Source of the DNA: Bacteroidota bacterium
Lineage (GTDB): Bacteria; Bacteroidota; Bacteroidia; Bacteroidales; UBA7960
NCBI GenBank assembly: GCA_007693555.1
Contig: REDJ01000132.1
Span: 1-39,588 of the forward strand
Reading direction: 5' to 3'
Length of the DNA stretch: 39,588 nt
Part shown: piece after piece, positions 26,903-34,445 of the stretch
How positions within the stretch are numbered: position 1 is the first letter of the stretch
How the letters are laid out: each line of letters starts with the position of its first letter
The notes under the pieces: generated by a model
The model's database searches: none
Told to the model about the DNA's origin: nothing
What the model saw: the letters and a program-made list of their open reading frames with translations, nothing else
Translations under genes and position numbers: made by a program

Positions 26903-28474
26903 TCAGTAAGGATCATGAGGTTCATGCCGGTCCATATCATGGTCGTGGGCTTGAATTTGATAGATATCGGTACGGCGGTCATTCCAGTTTGTAACGTTAC
27001 CACGGTTTCGGTGTCTTTTAAGCAGCTCCAGGTCAATATCGTTTATTATAACGGTTTCCACATTGGGAGTGCATTCAGCGGCAATGGCATCACGTGCGAA
27101 TGAAAAATCGGAAGGGGTGAAAATCCCGGATTGGGCGTATTGTATATCCATGTTATCAAGTTGCGGCAGGTTGCCCACCGTACCTGCGATAGCGACAAAA
27201 ATCTGATTTTCCACGCATCGTGCCTGGGCGCAGTATCTTACCCTGAGGTAGCTCTGGCGGTCGTCGGCACGGAATGGCACAAATATCATTCTTGCGCCCC
27301 GTTCCACTGCTATGCGGGCCAGTTCGGGGAATTCAATGTCATAACAAATCTGGATGGCAATTTTTCCTTTGTCGGTATCAAAAACCTCAATGTGTCGTCC
27401 GGGTTCTACTCCCCACCATTTTTTCTCGTTGGGGGTAATGTGGAGTTTGTATTGCTTGCCGATTTCTCCATTGCGTTTGAAAAGGTATGCAATGTTGTAT
27501 AGTTTGTCATTTTCCGGAGTAAAGTGTGAACCTGCCACAATATTGATATTGTATTTGAGGGAAAGATCGCTGAACAGCTCCAGGTACTGTTCGGTGAACT
27601 CTCCGATTTTGCGTGCTGCAGTACCGGGATTTTCCTTTGGGAAAAGAGAAAGCAACTGCAAGGTAAAAATCTCGGGAAACAACACAAAGTCACTTTTGTA
27701 GCCTGATGCCACATCCACAAAATACTCGCATTGTACGGCAAAATCATCGAAGCTTCTGATGGGTCGCATCTGGTATTGTACTACGCAGATTCGCATGGGC
27801 AGAGATGCCAGGAACTTCCTGTCTTTTTCTTCTCTGTAGTCAAAATTAGACCATTCGAGGTAGGTGGCAAAACCACCGGATTCCTTGTCATCATCAAGGT
27901 ATTCGCGGATTACTTTTTTCAGTGAAAAACCGTTGGAGAGCTGCGGTGTAAGTACCGGGTCGAAGATAGCTTTGCTGGTAACGCGGTCCACATACTGGTT
28001 GATGGTAAGCTTGTCGCGGTATTGTTTATATCCCGGCAGGCGGCCGCCAATGACAATACGCATGAGATTACGTTCGCGGGCCAGCTCTTTGCGTGCTTCA
28101 TAGAGGCGTGTAGCCAGTTTCATTCCCCTGTAATCGGGGTGCACCATGATTTCCATCCCGTAAAGGGTATCACCTTCGGGGTCGTGGGTACCAATGTTGC
28201 CATTGTCGCAAATCTCATCCCAGTTTTTCTCCAGGTCAAGGTCTTCCGAGTCAATAATAAGGCTGGAAGATGAGGCTACCAGCATTCCATCTATTTCAAT
28301 TACAATCTGCCCATCGGGGAATATACGTAACTGGTTTTCAATATTTTCTCTTGACCATGTTTCCATTGAGGGGAAACATATTTTCTGCATTCGCACCAGT
28401 TTGTCAAAGTCCTCTATTTGCAGGTTTCTGACTTTTAGCTTACTTTCAAATTCGTGAAGATCTATTTTTTCCAT
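26903..28474 (-). CDS. Bifunctional GNAT N-acyltransferase / carbon-nitrogen hydrolase (nitrilase)
   Basis: A 523-residue two-domain cytosolic protein. Residues about 15-215 are a GNAT acetyltransferase fold with the acetyl-CoA loop HPDYRGMKLATRLYEARKE (about 112-130) followed by IGGRLPGY. Residues about 226-495 are a nitrilase-superfamily domain with the triad Glu268 (LFPEIF), Lys343 (GKQYKLHITP) and Cys377 (IQICYDIEFPE), expected to cut a C-N bond of an amide. The fusion recurs in bacteria as a recognised architecture, but the substrate is not established. The C-terminus ends in a His/Asp-rich stretch (HDHDMDRHEPHDPY) that could bind metal. A MITE-like element begins 19 bp downstream of the stop. 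Confidence 0.92.
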   Translation of the reverse strand: MEKIDLHEFESKLKVRNLQIEDFDKLVRMQKICFPSMETWSRENIENQLRIFPDGQIVIEIDGMLVASSSSLIIDSEDLDLEKNWDEICDNGNIGTHDPEGDTLYGMEIMVHPDYRGMKLATRLYEARKELARERNLMRIVIGGRLPGYKQYRDKLTINQYVDRVTSKAIFDPVLTPQLSNGFSLKKVIREYLDDDKESGGFATYLEWSNFDYREEKDRKFLASLPMRICVVQYQMRPIRSFDDFAVQCEYFVDVASGYKSDFVLFPEIFTLQLLSLFPKENPGTAARKIGEFTEQYLELFSDLSLKYNINIVAGSHFTPENDKLYNIAYLFKRNGEIGKQYKLHITPNEKKWWGVEPGRHIEVFDTDKGKIAIQICYDIEFPELARIAVERGARMIFVPFRADDRQSYLRVRYCAQARCVENQIFVAIAGTVGNLPQLDNMDIQYAQSGIFTPSDFSFARDAIAAECTPNVETVIINDIDLELLKRHRNRGNVTNWNDRRTDIYQIQAHDHDMDRHEPHDPY

Positions 28475-29606: not shown

Positions 29607-30785
29607 TTACTTTATTTTTTCCACTGATTTGATGGAGCCGGTATTGGGATAAAACTCAATTTTCAGGTCATTGGGTGGCAGGCTGGTAATGATTCCATAC
29701 TGATTTACCAGCAGGCGTGAATCGGCCAGCGGGGCAGTACCTTTTCTTACGGTTATATTTGCATGTTCGGGAACGCGGTAAAAGAATCCTGTGTCAGCTT
29801 TTTTATTACGCTCGGGATTCATGATAAATACTCCCAGCTGGCGGGTTATATTGCTTCTTGCAGCCTCAATCTCCAGCTTAAAGCTTCCGCTTTTTTCTTC
29901 ATTTAAAACGCCCTCTTTTTCAGAAAAGTAAAAAAGCGTGTGTGGTATACCTGCGGTATTCTTTTCGGGTATATAGTAAAAGCGATAGCTCATTACAGTT
30001 TGAGTTGTAATGCCGGTAAAAAGTTCGAGGTAATCATTTTCCTGATTTTTCATTTGATCATACATATATTGCAATGCCTCTTTTGAATATGGGATTTCTG
30101 CAAAACCGCTGATCAGGTCAAATTTCTTTTCACGAAGTTTCATGATATAATCTGCCACTTCCCTTGCCCTTATTTCAGAGGATTTTTCCACCATTCTGCG
30201 CCTGAGATTTCTTCGCTCTACAGTCATTGTATCCACTTGAATATATTGAATAATAGTATCTACTTTTTCCTGCAAACCTGATTCGAGGAAGTAGTTGAAG
30301 GTAGCCTCGGTGCCGAAATACCCGTATTTTCTTGTTTCAGACATGCTCATAAGAAACTCCTGCTCATCAAAAGGAGCATTAACAGCTGAAATGAGGCCTG
30401 ATTCACTGGCGTGTAGTGAGAATGGGTTTTTCTGGTTTTTGTTCAAATCCAGTTCCACGAAGTAAAACTCGGCCGGGTCAGGCTCAGCAAAAGAATTGAT
30501 TTTCACTTCTCTTATTTCGAAAATAGTTGAGGGAGTTGAAATTACATTTTCAAGGCTCAGAAACCTTGATGCATATTGTGCAAAAGGACCGGGGGTTTCT
30601 TCTGTTTTAACCACGACAATGTCGATACTCAAAACGGTTCTTGGCAAGGCATAATAAAATCCCTGAAGTGTGTGGCCTGCCTCCAGGTTTCTGATATGCT
30701 GCACTCTTATGGGCTGCTGGGTTTTACATCCCATTCCCACGATAAGGAAAAAAATTCCGGCGATAATAATTCTGGTATTGCTCAT
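29607..30785 (-). CDS. DUF4831-family lipoprotein
   Basis: A 392-residue predicted lipoprotein: the hydrophobic N-terminus ends V-G-M-G-C (Cys20), close to a lipobox. The body (HTLQGFYYALPRTVLSIDIVV, YASRFLSLENVI, EIREVKI, RKYGYFGTEATFNYFLE) matches my knowledge of DUF4831, a Bacteroidota family of unknown function. A central stretch (about 215-260) contains RRMVEKSSEIRAREVADYIMKLREKKFDLISG, as usual in the family. Probably periplasmic or outer-membrane attached. It lies 116 bp downstream of the cyanophycin synthetase-like gene on the same strand. Confidence 0.82.
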   Translation of the reverse strand: MSNTRIIIAGIFFLIVGMGCKTQQPIRVQHIRNLEAGHTLQGFYYALPRTVLSIDIVVVKTEETPGPFAQYASRFLSLENVISTPSTIFEIREVKINSFAEPDPAEFYFVELDLNKNQKNPFSLHASESGLISAVNAPFDEQEFLMSMSETRKYGYFGTEATFNYFLESGLQEKVDTIIQYIQVDTMTVERRNLRRRMVEKSSEIRAREVADYIMKLREKKFDLISGFAEIPYSKEALQYMYDQMKNQENDYLELFTGITTQTVMSYRFYYIPEKNTAGIPHTLFYFSEKEGVLNEEKSGSFKLEIEAARSNITRQLGVFIMNPERNKKADTGFFYRVPEHANITVRKGTAPLADSRLLVNQYGIITSLPPNDLKIEFYPNTGSIKSVEKIK

Positions 30786-30901: not shown

Positions 30902-33646
30902 TTATAAAAATATAAGATTCTGACTGATGAGTTGCTGCAGATAGCGGAAATTCCAGCTAAATAGAAGGAATGTATGTGTCTTTGTATTCGTTTCCAGTTT
31001 TTTTATGCATTCTATGGCATTTTTAAAATACCTGAACTCAAAATTTTTGCCGGTGTTTCTATTCATTTGGTTTTTTATGGTATCGACAATGGATTTTTCA
31101 TCCATTTTATCATGAAAGATTTTTGGTTTTTGATAACGGTTTTTGAGTGGGATTATAGCTGAGTTTTGAGCATCTGCAATGAAGGGAGAACCGGAGTTCT
31201 GAAAATCATTTTGTGAGAAAAACAGGTTTACTCTTATATTTTCTTTTTTGAAAACATTGGAAAAATGCAGCCAGAAATCATCGGGTATATTGCCACTAAG
31301 GTCGGTGAATATTTCATAATTGTCTTTATTATCAGCCAGTTTGTTTTTGAGGTTTTTAAGGGCAATGGGTCCTGCCGGTTTATCAATGATTACTGTATTT
31401 TGATTGGGGTATATGGTCATAAGCCGTCCGTGCAGGCTTGATGAATCGGGCTTAAAAGCTTTAAGCAGGTGGCTGATCCGTTCGGGATGCAGGTCCATAG
31501 CAGCGGCAGTACAAATTGCAGCAAGTATGGATTCGAGTAGGATGTCATTTTTCCCATTACCCCATAAGGGGATATCACTGAGCCTGGCAATGCAGTTTTT
31601 TCCTCCATGTGTCCAGAGAAAAATTTCATTGTTTTCCACGCCTGCACCCATTCCTCCTTTCAGACAGTGCTTTTTAAATTCGGGATTATCAGTTTTTTTT
31701 GTAAATAGTATGGGTTTGCTGTAAATCCTTTCTCTCATGGATAAGATAAGAGGTTCGTCGGCATTGAGAATGCTGTAGCCATCGCGGTAAACCTCTTCAG
31801 CTACCACCGATTTGGCATGGGCGAGGTCATCGGTATTGTGGATACTGTCGAGGTAAAGATGCTGTGGATGGACATTGAGCACAATACCTACATCAGCAAA
31901 ATCATATCCCAGTCCTTCGCTCATTATGCTTTCGGCAGAAGTTTCGAGTACAGCACAGTCCACGCCGGGGTCCTTGAGGATTAGCTGTGCAGCGTGATGA
32001 TTGGCCATATCTTCACGAATGATGCGATGACCGTCGATATAAATTCCATCGGAATGTGCCAGGCCGGTTTTATATCCTTCTTTTTCCAGCATGAAGTTGA
32101 CCAGGTATGCACATACGGATTTACCTGCTGAGCCGGTGACAGATATAACGGTTATTCTGAAAGGAGCATTTTCAGGGAAAAGCATATCGAGAAAAGGGGC
32201 TGCCACATCTCTTCGCTTCCCCTGCCAGGGGTTTAAATACATCTGAAAGTCTTGCCCGGGTATTATATCAACCACAGCACCCTGTGTGTCTTCAATGGGT
32301 TTGCTGATATCAGGACATACGATGTTGACCCCTGCCACATCCAGCCCGCTTATCCTGGCTGCCCTTTCGGCAATTTGTTGGTTTTGGGGATGTACCTCAC
32401 CGGTAACATCGGTGGTAAGTGCACCATTTTTAGCACTGGGGTAATGACTGAGCAATATTTTTTTACCTTTCTCGGGTACGTCATCGAGTGTATAACCATA
32501 GAATGACAGAACTTCGAGCATGGCATCATCAGGTTGCAGTATTTTCAATCCAGCCCTTTTTACTGACTGTCTGTTTTGCTCTTTGTTCAGTTTTTCAATA
32601 AGTCTGGCAATGGTATCTTTTCCGTTTCCGACAACTTCCGGGTTTTGCAAAAGTGTGGCGGCAACAAACCTGTTATTGATGACCAGAATGCGGTAACTCA
32701 TCCCGGGTATCTGCTCCTGTACCAAAACCTCATCATCGTGTGCTTTACACCGGATAAAAGCTTCTTTTAAAACATCTTCATGATTGATACCCGGAAATAG
32801 TGAAGCTTCATCAAGCCGGGCAGGGGATTTTAAGGTAACAGGCTTTCGCTGAGATTTCCAGAAAGATACTACCTCCTCAATATCTTCTGTTTTCAGGGTT
32901 TCGGGTGCGGGAATTCCGGCGTTGGACAGCATGAGTGTGTTGAGATATTTGTTACGGGTGTTTTCTGCTCCAATGAGAGGGGTTTGGGAGGTTACAGTGC
33001 CACGTATACGTTTCTGATACTTCCCTGTACCAAACTGAACAAGATTGCAGGTTTGAAGTGGAATTACAGGGATGTTGCGCATATCTGCCTCTTCTTTAAT
33101 TGCGGCAATACCGGTGCTCATCATCTCTTTTTCGTATATATAGCTTAGATTTCCGGTGATTTGATCTATGTCATCCGGTTCTTTCCCGGTGAGTATTTGA
33201 TTGAGCAGGTTAACGGAAGCCCTGGCGGTATAGAAGCCCGCATTTTCATTAATAAACCGGAATATGACATTATAAATTCCTTTTTTGCCGGTACTTTTTG
33301 TTTTGCCGAAGTTTACATTCATGCCTGCCAATGCCTGAAGCTCTATGACGATATGCTCTGCTACATGCCCCAACAGCGTTCCTTCTATTATTCTTTTGAA
33401 AAACCCACCGGATTCACCTTCACTGCATTTATGCTCTTCAAGAGTTGGAAGTGTATTTTTAAGTTTCTCAGCAAAACCCGGAATTTTATTGGTAAATACT
33501 TCGCCATAATCTCCCAGGTTTAATTGCAAAATAATGACAGGTCCGGCACTGTAATATCCTGCACCATGAATGGCCTGCAGTGATTCGATGCGAAGCGGGC
33601 CATCCACCAGGGCATTATCCGGATATTGCTCTTGATTTATAGTCAT
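30902..33646 (-). CDS. Cyanophycin synthetase-like protein with altered ATP-site motifs
   Basis: A 914-residue protein with the three-part CphA layout. The N-terminal domain (1-170) keeps EHKCSEGESGGFF and GTLLGHVAEHIVIELQ. The ATP-grasp domain (about 180-490) keeps VQFGTGKYQKRIRGTVTS, VQEQIPGMSYRILVIN and DVTGEVHPQN, but the glycine-rich loop expected after VKP/VKS (canonical GNHGRG) is replaced by ARLDEASLF (277-285) and the metal-binding E-V-N near 460 reads D-I-I. The Mur-ligase domain (about 497-914) has a P-loop G-S-A-G-K-S (505-510) instead of GTNGKTTT, S-A-E-S for A-R-G-G, and D-K-P-A-G-P (755-760) where DYGHNP is expected. It may be a specialised CphA2-like ligase, a new amino-acid ligase or an inactive paralogue. 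The peptidase E gene lies directly upstream. Confidence 0.85.
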   Translation of the reverse strand: MTINQEQYPDNALVDGPLRIESLQAIHGAGYYSAGPVIILQLNLGDYGEVFTNKIPGFAEKLKNTLPTLEEHKCSEGESGGFFKRIIEGTLLGHVAEHIVIELQALAGMNVNFGKTKSTGKKGIYNVIFRFINENAGFYTARASVNLLNQILTGKEPDDIDQITGNLSYIYEKEMMSTGIAAIKEEADMRNIPVIPLQTCNLVQFGTGKYQKRIRGTVTSQTPLIGAENTRNKYLNTLMLSNAGIPAPETLKTEDIEEVVSFWKSQRKPVTLKSPARLDEASLFPGINHEDVLKEAFIRCKAHDDEVLVQEQIPGMSYRILVINNRFVAATLLQNPEVVGNGKDTIARLIEKLNKEQNRQSVKRAGLKILQPDDAMLEVLSFYGYTLDDVPEKGKKILLSHYPSAKNGALTTDVTGEVHPQNQQIAERAARISGLDVAGVNIVCPDISKPIEDTQGAVVDIIPGQDFQMYLNPWQGKRRDVAAPFLDMLFPENAPFRITVISVTGSAGKSVCAYLVNFMLEKEGYKTGLAHSDGIYIDGHRIIREDMANHHAAQLILKDPGVDCAVLETSAESIMSEGLGYDFADVGIVLNVHPQHLYLDSIHNTDDLAHAKSVVAEEVYRDGYSILNADEPLILSMRERIYSKPILFTKKTDNPEFKKHCLKGGMGAGVENNEIFLWTHGGKNCIARLSDIPLWGNGKNDILLESILAAICTAAAMDLHPERISHLLKAFKPDSSSLHGRLMTIYPNQNTVIIDKPAGPIALKNLKNKLADNKDNYEIFTDLSGNIPDDFWLHFSNVFKKENIRVNLFFSQNDFQNSGSPFIADAQNSAIIPLKNRYQKPKIFHDKMDEKSIVDTIKNQMNRNTGKNFEFRYFKNAIECIKKLETNTKTHTFLLFSWNFRYLQQLISQNLIFL

Positions 33647-33731: not shown

Positions 33732-34445
33732 TTATTTCAGAATAAAATCAAGCGAAGTGCTGGGGTCGTATTCAAGGGTGGGCTGGTCTTTGCGAAACAC
33801 TTTCAATGTTTTGTTGCCCAGCAGTTTAACCATATCTCCTTCAATTCGCAGCATTGTGCCCTCTTTGAGGCCCACAACGGTCATGTCAGGATTGAGTTCA
33901 AGGAATTCCCTTATTCTATCTTCGCGCGATTCCCCGTTATGGTTGGGGACACGCCCATCGGTATAATGTGGATTGATTTGAAACGGTATGAGCGACAGTC
34001 CTTCAAAACTCACAGGTTGAATTACGGGCATATCATTTGTAGTTTTGATGGTGGGGCAGGCTACATTGCTTCCGGCGCTCCAGCCGATGAAGGGTGTGCT
34101 GTTTTCCACTTTTTGTCTGATGACATCCATTATACCCTTTTCGTGCATATAATGGATGAGGTGAAATGTATTTCCCCCACCAACAACTATGGCATCGGCA
34201 TCTTCAATTACTTTTTTTGCACCTTGCACATCTTCGGTGGATTTCAGCGTATAGCCCAGTTCGGAAAATACTTCGCTCACCTGGTTGGTATACTCCACCC
34301 AGGAGATGTCGACAGCGGCATAGGGAACGAAAGCTACGTTGCGAACATCTTTACCCAGAAACTCACTAATGTATTTGCGGGTATAGGCAAGGTATTGTTC
34401 TCCGTAGTTGGTGGAGTTGCTGATTAATAAAAGTCGTTTTTGCAT
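33732..34445 (-). CDS. pepE: Dipeptidase E (alpha-aspartyl dipeptidase, peptidase S51)
   Basis: A 237-residue cytosolic serine dipeptidase that cleaves Asp-Xaa dipeptides. The nucleophile is Ser123 in GWSAGSN, the histidine His160 in QINPHY, and Asp138 in TTNDMP; the 15- and 37-residue spacings equal those of Salmonella PepE (Ser120, Asp135, His157). AIVVGGGNTFHLIH (85-98) is the family's glycine-rich motif. Cyanophycinase (CphB) belongs to the same S51 family, but this protein's length and INPHY/NDMP motifs favour PepE. It lies 85 bp upstream of the cyanophycin synthetase-like gene on the same strand, suggesting handling of aspartyl peptides, with a terminator hairpin in between. Confidence 0.92.
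   Translation of the reverse strand: MQKRLLLISNSTNYGEQYLAYTRKYISEFLGKDVRNVAFVPYAAVDISWVEYTNQVSEVFSELGYTLKSTEDVQGAKKVIEDADAIVVGGGNTFHLIHYMHEKGIMDVIRQKVENSTPFIGWSAGSNVACPTIKTTNDMPVIQPVSFEGLSLIPFQINPHYTDGRVPNHNGESREDRIREFLELNPDMTVVGLKEGTMLRIEGDMVKLLGNKTLKVFRKDQPTLEYDPSTSLDFILK

Follow-up and report, generated by a model that had tools for sequence, protein, structure and literature searches.

The window, the whole 39,588-nucleotide (nt) stretch of a Bacteroidota genome analyzed here (contig REDJ01000132.1), encodes a 914-amino-acid (aa) protein derived from the cyanophycin synthetase CphA1 (positions 30905 to 33646; stop codon at 30902 to 30904). We read this divergent CphA as a ligase-disabled CphA1 derivative retained for cutting or handling cyanophycin through the zinc site of its N domain, and we put the probability of this reading at about 0.45. 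Judged by sequence, peptide building appears to be lost in the G domain (the half that adds backbone aspartate), and in the M domain (the Mur half, which adds arginine) it is probably at least no longer that of CphA1. Coordinates are those of the whole stretch, and the gene with all of its domains and sites lies on the minus strand. Reference sites carry TeCphA1 residue numbers unless window numbering is stated. G and L numbers denote the genomes and loci compared, and G000 is the window's genome.

The divergent CphA is a full-length CphA1 homologue in a clade of its own

The frame of 914 codons plus stop is intact and begins with an ATG at 33646. The protein was assigned by its open reading frame (ORF), by hidden Markov model profiles and by fold. 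The TIGR02068 cyanophycin synthetase profile matched over profile positions 1 to 755 of 862 with 690.9 bits, below its cut-off of 850, and the NF010623 score of 682.1 was likewise below the cut-off of 877. The best solved relatives were TeCphA1 (7wac; E 4.6e-131) and SuCphA1 (7lg5; E 3.4e-130), and matches to CphA2 structures reached about 1e-33, compared with about 1e-130 for CphA1. A structure model built from 32 aligned rows had a mean predicted local distance difference test (pLDDT) score of 84.8 and aligned with SuCphA1 7txv over 841 residues (Z 45.2, root mean square deviation [rmsd] 6.5) and with 7lgq over 854 residues (Z 36.8, rmsd 5.2). By descent and modeled fold, the window protein is a full-length CphA1 homologue across the N, G and M domains. 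The initial annotation had described a kept CphA layout with an intact 914-codon frame, and the ORF, the three-domain homology and the fold match bear this out.

The protein did not qualify as a working two-ligase CphA1, failing at the profile cut-offs, the G site and the M site. Its pattern was the opposite of that of CphA2, which keeps the G site, has no N motif and measures about 600 to 650 aa. The gene does not have the broken frame of a pseudogene. Around it, consensus promoters and terminators were in no excess over shuffled sequences.

Relatives were collected from 47 genomes of the window's family and 393 genomes of its order, most of them apparent draft metagenome-assembled genomes (MAGs). 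In the order samples, at most two or three candidates per genome were scored (at most two for CphA1-type matches), so a canonical CphA1 in a genome of the divergent clade could have been missed. The divergent gene was present in 11 of the 47 family genomes. In the order sample, 30 of the 393 genomes had a match at E 1e-60 or better; 5 of these were canonical CphA1 by site pattern and 25 belonged to the divergent clade, a count that includes G466, which has only a 189-aa N-domain piece. Two quick trees separated the clade from canonical CphA1 with SH-aLRT supports of 97 and 96 in one and 100 and 100 in the other; in sequence, the divergent clade is sister to canonical CphA1. A contig scan with an alignment as the query returned 16 relative loci, 8 of them already among the contigs of the sampled genomes, and the same scan with the window protein alone as the query returned no relative. 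The named relatives come from Bacteroidales/Bacteroidetes MAGs and from one MAG each classified under Muiribacteriota, Chlorobiota and Acetofilamentum; the isolate labels of several include CSSed and T3Sed10, which we take to be soda-lake sediment sets. The window protein is 59 to 65% identical to the products of L010, L011, L012, L015 and L031. An alphaproteobacterial match (L095) covered residues 435 to 644 at 25%. Another family of the phylum (G169, G221, G269 and G324) had CphA matches under the cut-off that started at profile positions 114 to 196, late in the N domain or beyond it, and these proteins may have no N domain or a dissimilar one.

The zinc endo-cyanophycinase site of the N domain is intact

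The N domain (window residues 19 to 178; 33113 to 33592) was located by alignment and by a 140-bit match to Pfam PF18921 over residues 40 to 152. Its zinc endo-cyanophycinase site spans positions 33341 to 33433. Here H72, C74, H94, E97, H98 and E102 of the window protein, with 19 residues between C74 and H94, correspond to H57, C59, H79, E82, H83 and E87. The Cx19HxxEH motif together with H57, R70 and E87 is fully present, and the residues kept at the site are H57, C59, S60, F67, R70, H79, E82, H83, E87, T101 and Y110. The zinc ligands, the general base and the second-shell residues are thus all in place, as are most residues that contact the chain. Window residues S613 to E617 (31796 to 31810) retain S603 and E607, two M-domain residues in contact with cyanophycin in the N groove. 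These two chain contacts occur in 31/35 and 34/35 clade rows with data, compared with 7/37 and 14/37 rows of the canonical set described below. The motif, the function of the site and the roles of the M-domain contacts are those of PMC9262961. From these residues the N site is predicted to be a zinc-binding chain cutter. The initial annotation treated the protein as a two-site enzyme; it was right that both ligase halves are altered, and it overlooked this third catalytic site.

The aspartate-adding site of the G domain is extensively changed

In the G domain, alignment showed that the ATP-grasp P-loop is lost (KSPARLDEAS; 32801 to 32830), with LDGNHGR at TeCphA1 263 to 269 reading PARLDEA. 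The aspartate-binding arginine is replaced by leucine (window L333, R323L; 32648 to 32650), and two further residues of the aspartate pocket have become S404 and K406 (N394S and S396K; 32429 to 32437). The Mg ligand D431 is an asparagine (window N441; 32324 to 32326), D460-I-I462 replaces E450-V-N452 (32261 to 32269), and R458 is a glutamine. Roles of the Mg ligands and of the aspartate pocket follow PMC9427784. E215, K220, K261 and R309 are kept, so that from the set of K220, K261, the P-loop with H267, R309, R323, N394, S396, D431 and E450, only K220, K261 and R309 remain.

Every change that the initial annotation had listed (the ATP-grasp loop, E-V-N, the Mur P-loop, A-R-G-G and D-Y-G-H-N-P) was confirmed at the aligned positions, and the alignment did not place the canonical residues at shifted positions. 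The list had not included D431N, R323L, N394S, S396K, R458Q and D585Q. The possibility that normal CphA enzymes share such changes was examined against 37 canonical rows. Thirteen sites (K220, K261, G268, R309, R323, N394, S396, D431, E450, N452, R458, D585 and H586) were identical in 37/37 of these rows and H267 in 34/37, in a set that was chosen by score (30 best-scoring matches and 5 canonical by site pattern) and leans canonical.

Replacement of R323 by leucine or valine extends to all 36 clade rows with data, including 25/25 outside the window's family, and S396 is an arginine or lysine in 22 of 25 clade rows outside the family. Such a change in the aspartate pocket throughout the clade is consistent with substrate use having been altered or lost. 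Within the family, all 11 genes have a change at D431, at E450 or at both of these Mg ligands, and the G P-loop is gone in 8 of the 10 genes with data. An earlier proposal held that the protein is a divergent ligase with another substrate. It was correct in describing a divergent CphA under selection with both halves altered, and for the M half it may hold; for the window's G half it is poorly supported, because both Mg ligands are changed and the P-loop is gone.

The M domain keeps nucleotide-side residues and has lost substrate-side ones

The Mur P-loop GTNGKTT reads GSAGKSV in the window protein (32114 to 32134). GSAGKS is found in 10 of the 11 family genes, L018 has GSKGKT, and the P-loop lysine is present in 11/11. 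At E568-T-S-A-E-S573 (window numbering; 31928 to 31945), E558 is kept and A-R-G-G has become S-A-E-S. At Q595-H596 (31859 to 31864), D585 is a glutamine and H586 is kept; published work used a D585A H586A double mutant as the control with an inactive M site (PMC9262961). DYAHNP reads DKPAGP, with H748 an alanine. The kept residues are K499, S at 500, S at 522, E558, H586, R731 and D745. Compared with the set K499, T500, E558, ARGG, D585, H586, R731 and H748, the protein is without ARGG, D585 and H748 and has S at 500.

The Mur lid (window residues 734 to 914; 30905 to 31447) has diverged, with R741 and D755 (window numbering) kept and HNP and GDRR lost, and its sequence is nearly unrecognizable (8.5% to the canonical Mur lid by hhalign). 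A new C-terminal domain in place of the lid was rejected, as the predicted fold can be aligned up to residue 914. Of 24 clade rows from outside the window's family, 20 have no M lid (L170, cut by a contig end, was left out).

Because a ligase-disabled protein leaves the M nucleotide residues unexplained, a retargeted ligase or an ATP-gated domain has to be weighed. In the former, the M half would bind ATP and join another substrate, and the N domain would only hold the chain. The conserved GSAGKS with its lysine agrees with this account, as do E558, S522, R731 and D745, which are kept where present, the M core, which shows the highest conservation of any domain between the window and four near relatives, and the folded lid, retained in the family though lost in most other clade rows. 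We nevertheless consider retargeting rather unlikely, since on the substrate side ARGG, D585 and H748 are lost with no consistent replacement save a glutamate at 562 (11/12 family rows). Within the family, D585 is Q, S, N or R and H586 is H, N, Y or Q. In addition, the sequence of the lid drifts, and lidless relatives keep the N site.

The N site is the constant of the clade

The N-site motif is intact in 34 of the 35 clade rows compared. Eight N columns that are invariant in the 37 canonical rows were kept in 200/200 cells of 25 clade rows outside the family and in 72/72 cells of 9 family rows (77/80 when L018 is added). In these 9 family rows, G-site columns were kept in 37/98 cells and M-site columns in 44/115. 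Fully kept columns in the family without L018 numbered 8/8 for N, compared with 2/11 for G (P = 0.0007) and 4/13 for M (P = 0.005); in the other clade rows the numbers were 8/8, 3/11 and 3/13 (P = 0.003 and 0.001). At the level of sequence, some members of the clade have a damaged G half and some a damaged M half, and the N site is the feature that stays constant.

L018, which lies in G011, is shortened by a stop and carries E82G, R70E, S60K, T101F and Y110R. Among the 47 family genomes, G011 is the only one with a canonical CphA1 alongside the divergent CphA, and its divergent copy is the sole one in the family with E82G. This species has its canonical CphA1 (L030) beside a cyanophycinase, in addition to the truncated, broken-N copy.

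The far-diverged L176 (G610) has lost both P-loops and retains the whole N site and E607, with G at 603. L176, L091 and L094 form a very diverged branch with a deleted G P-loop and damage to the M site; both L176 and L091 have an intact N site, and L094 is without that part. A quick tree joined the window's family with this branch at a support of 49, so the double damage in the two may be either independent or shared. In L017 (G023), an in-frame TGA, either real or an assembly error, interrupts the first third of a divergent copy that is open elsewhere.

Whole-gene ratios of nonsynonymous to synonymous substitution rates (dN/dS) were 0.135 in the closest congeneric pair (dS 0.18) and 0.095 to 0.109 in three others (dS 1.0 to 1.5). 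Per-domain values for congeneric pairs lay between 0.045 and 0.18, and dS in these comparisons was often above 1. In pairs that include the window, dS was saturated and gives no estimate for the window's own branch. Simple decay is unlikely, and the congeneric copies appear to be under purifying selection. The earlier argument from full-length retention against simple decay gains support from the intact frame and from the dN/dS of 0.095 to 0.135 in the four congeneric pairs.

The divergent CphA co-occurs with a CphA2-like protein

In the order sample of 393 genomes, the divergent CphA and a CphA2-like protein were both present in 21, the divergent CphA only in 4, the CphA2-like protein only in 5 and neither in 363. 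This gives 25 and 26 carriers, respectively (Fisher test, 2e-26 with kinship ignored). The CphA2 counts exclude cross-matches to canonical CphA1 in G567 and G800; G800 also has a true CphA2. Two CphA2-like copies were found in each of G018, G023, G501, G694 and G761. Among 25 family genomes searched, a full-length CphA2-like protein was present in 8, all of which carry the divergent CphA, and three genomes have the divergent CphA without CphA2 (G000, G010 and G011). The CphA2-like partners have no N motif, and the ATP, Mg and aspartate-pocket residues of their G site are present in 9/9 rows, save R458F; residue 458 is F or Y in two solved CphA2 enzymes. One partner had its best matches to solved CphA2 (7ta5, E 6.2e-136; 8fxh, E 2.4e-125). 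CphA2 is called cyanobacterial in PMC10206079 and PMC9262961.

Such strong co-occurrence would be expected of a pseudo-synthetase, that is, a noncatalytic protein that partners or scaffolds CphA2 or cyanophycin granules. The same idea draws on G015 and G021 (G015:C51 and G021:C289; L026 and L024), in which a 569-aa CphA2 is without about residues 315 to 395, the G-omega module, and which have no divergent CphA, unlike the 8 genomes with full-length CphA2. A scaffold, however, needs neither the catalytic E82 nor the zinc ligands, yet these are kept in 34/35 rows, and G000 and G010 still carry the gene although their syntenic locus has no CphA2. We regard this explanation as improbable.

Gene neighborhood and the window's genome

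A PepE-like S51 peptidase gene (33732 to 34445, minus strand; NF003642, 304.8 bits, cut-off 156) lies 85 bases upstream of the divergent CphA gene. A pepE gene is directly upstream in 10/10 family genomes with upstream sequence; in the eleventh, G003, the contig ends inside the gene. Downstream is a DUF4831 protein gene (29607 to 30785, minus strand), a neighbor in most of the genus that is not known to be linked to it. A GNAT acetyltransferase joined to a carbon-nitrogen hydrolase (window 26903 to 28474) is another frequent neighbor in the genus. In 20 clade loci from the order, many on short contigs, pepE was near in 3 (L194, L195 and L212), and cphB, iadA or CphA2 was near in 4 (L195, L197, L199 and L209). 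Linked gene orders, with "star" denoting the divergent CphA, were pepE-star-CphA2-iadA (L090) and cphB-CphA2-iadA-star (L088, and L209 read on its own strand).

IadA is present in the window's genome, at a locus syntenic with that of G002 minus cphB and CphA2. The CphA2 and cyanophycinase genes are absent between iadA and the 440-aa gene that flanks them in G002 (L233, G000:C234, 7108 to 7242), and tblastn at E 0.01 found no remnants of cphB or CphA2 at this locus. An assembly gap is an unlikely cause, as the contig spans the junction and the genome is 96.7% complete. G010 is likewise without both genes, and so is G012, of another genus, between the same neighbors. Even with G012, the absence is probably a loss in the window's lineage rather than a gain in its relatives.

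This probable loss raises the question of a relic on its way out, whose function depended on CphA2 and ceased when the window's lineage lost CphA2. The missing CphA2 and cphB at the otherwise syntenic locus of the window's genome and G010 are in line with this, as are G001 and G007, where no divergent CphA lies between pepE and DUF4831. Nevertheless, we think a relic very unlikely, given the intact 914-codon frame and N site at 59 to 65% identity to the five near relatives named above and dN/dS near 0.1 in congeneric pairs, a ratio that the saturated dS leaves unestimated for the window's branch.

A search for a canonical cphA elsewhere in the window's genome found none; the next NF010623 matches were partial, at 85 bits or less, and by sequence look like Mur ligases and ATP-grasp proteins. 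No CphA-like gene other than the divergent CphA was found, so within its own genome it does not qualify as a paralogue, contrary to the suggestion of a regulatory paralogue in the initial annotation. The genome also encodes a cyanophycinase-family protein (L232, G000:C203, 5910 to 6767; 151 bits, cut-off 126.6) whose N terminus resembles a lipoprotein signal, making it a candidate surface cyanophycinase. It is weak evidence, because genomes without any CphA have such proteins.

Discussion

The window protein resembles CphA1 (SuCphA1 7lg5/7txv and TeCphA1 7wac) in its three-domain layout, full-length fold and intact N-domain Cx19HxxEH. It differs in its G P-loop, Mg ligands and aspartate pocket, in the loss of ARGG, D585 and H748, in scoring below the profile cut-offs and in belonging to a separate clade. 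CphB/CphE and PepE (S51) share with its predicted N-site activity the breakdown of cyanophycin or aspartyl peptides, and PepE adjoins the window gene; they are serine peptidases of unrelated fold. All of the named catalytic and metal residues of the inverzincin-like N-domain endo-cyanophycinase of CphA1 are present. That activity, described in 2022 as a helper within an active synthetase (PMC9262961), serves ligases of the same chain, whereas in the window protein those ligases look altered or disabled. CphA2 (Gloeothece 7ta5 and Stanieria 8fxh) is likewise a CphA with only part of the activities, and CphA2-like proteins co-occur with the divergent clade. CphA2 keeps the G site and is without the N motif (PMC9262961), whereas the window protein shows the reverse and is far nearer CphA1 in sequence.

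Several observations weigh against a ligase-disabled chain cutter. In the family, E450 and some of the G P-loop survive in L016 and L017. Beyond the family, most of the G site is preserved (217/274 cells) save for the aspartate pocket, so "ligase-dead" does not describe the entire clade. The M nucleotide residues K499, S/T 500, S522, E558, R731 and D745 are present in all family rows having them, and conservation between the window and four near relatives (one partial) is 0.76 to 0.83 for the M core versus 0.65 to 0.67 for the N domain. This order is not seen in every family pair (L010-L012, 0.80 versus 0.88), and M-core conservation exceeds the needs of a mere N-domain chassis. In the N site itself, G97 is N and R100 is K (R100A was without effect in SuCphA1; PMC9262961), and the published N-domain activity is slow. 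L018 is a gene that persists, truncated, without the N site, and with it included the fully kept family columns are 5/8 for N, 2/11 for G and 4/13 for M, which is not significant (P = 0.07 and 0.20). All of the counts are weakened because canonical rows were selected by their scores, columns were defined with the alignment already in view, and the rows are related. Finally, no internal chain is evident in the window's genome, because it is without CphA1, CphA2 and the linked cyanophycinase.

If the divergent CphA is a cutter, its N-domain zinc site would cut or hold cyanophycin-like chains. In most relatives, it would cut chains into short pieces that prime CphA2, which would re-join beta-Asp-Arg units. 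The activities of CphA1 would then be divided between two proteins, since one cuts and the other re-joins. In the window's genome, the cutter would process only imported or residual chains, because CphA2 and the linked cyanophycinase are absent, and IadA would split beta-aspartyl dipeptides. A possible, though doubtful, extension is that Bacteroidales have a split cyanophycin system, in which a G-only CphA2-type polymerase works with a CphA1 descendant acting as N-domain scissors, and that the window's lineage subsequently lost the polymerase, leaving a stand-alone hydrolase.

A literature search by title and start of abstract, with subscription journals mostly outside it, found no report of a CphA that is ligase-dead and retains its N site, and none of CphA2 in Bacteroidota. 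The co-occurring CphA2-like proteins extend CphA2 to Bacteroidales. The division of labor could be tested with two purified proteins, and the window protein would be a ligase-poor enzyme for studying the N-domain endo-cyanophycinase. If the reading is true, the N site kept amid eroding ligase sites would be natural evidence that the N site matters by itself.

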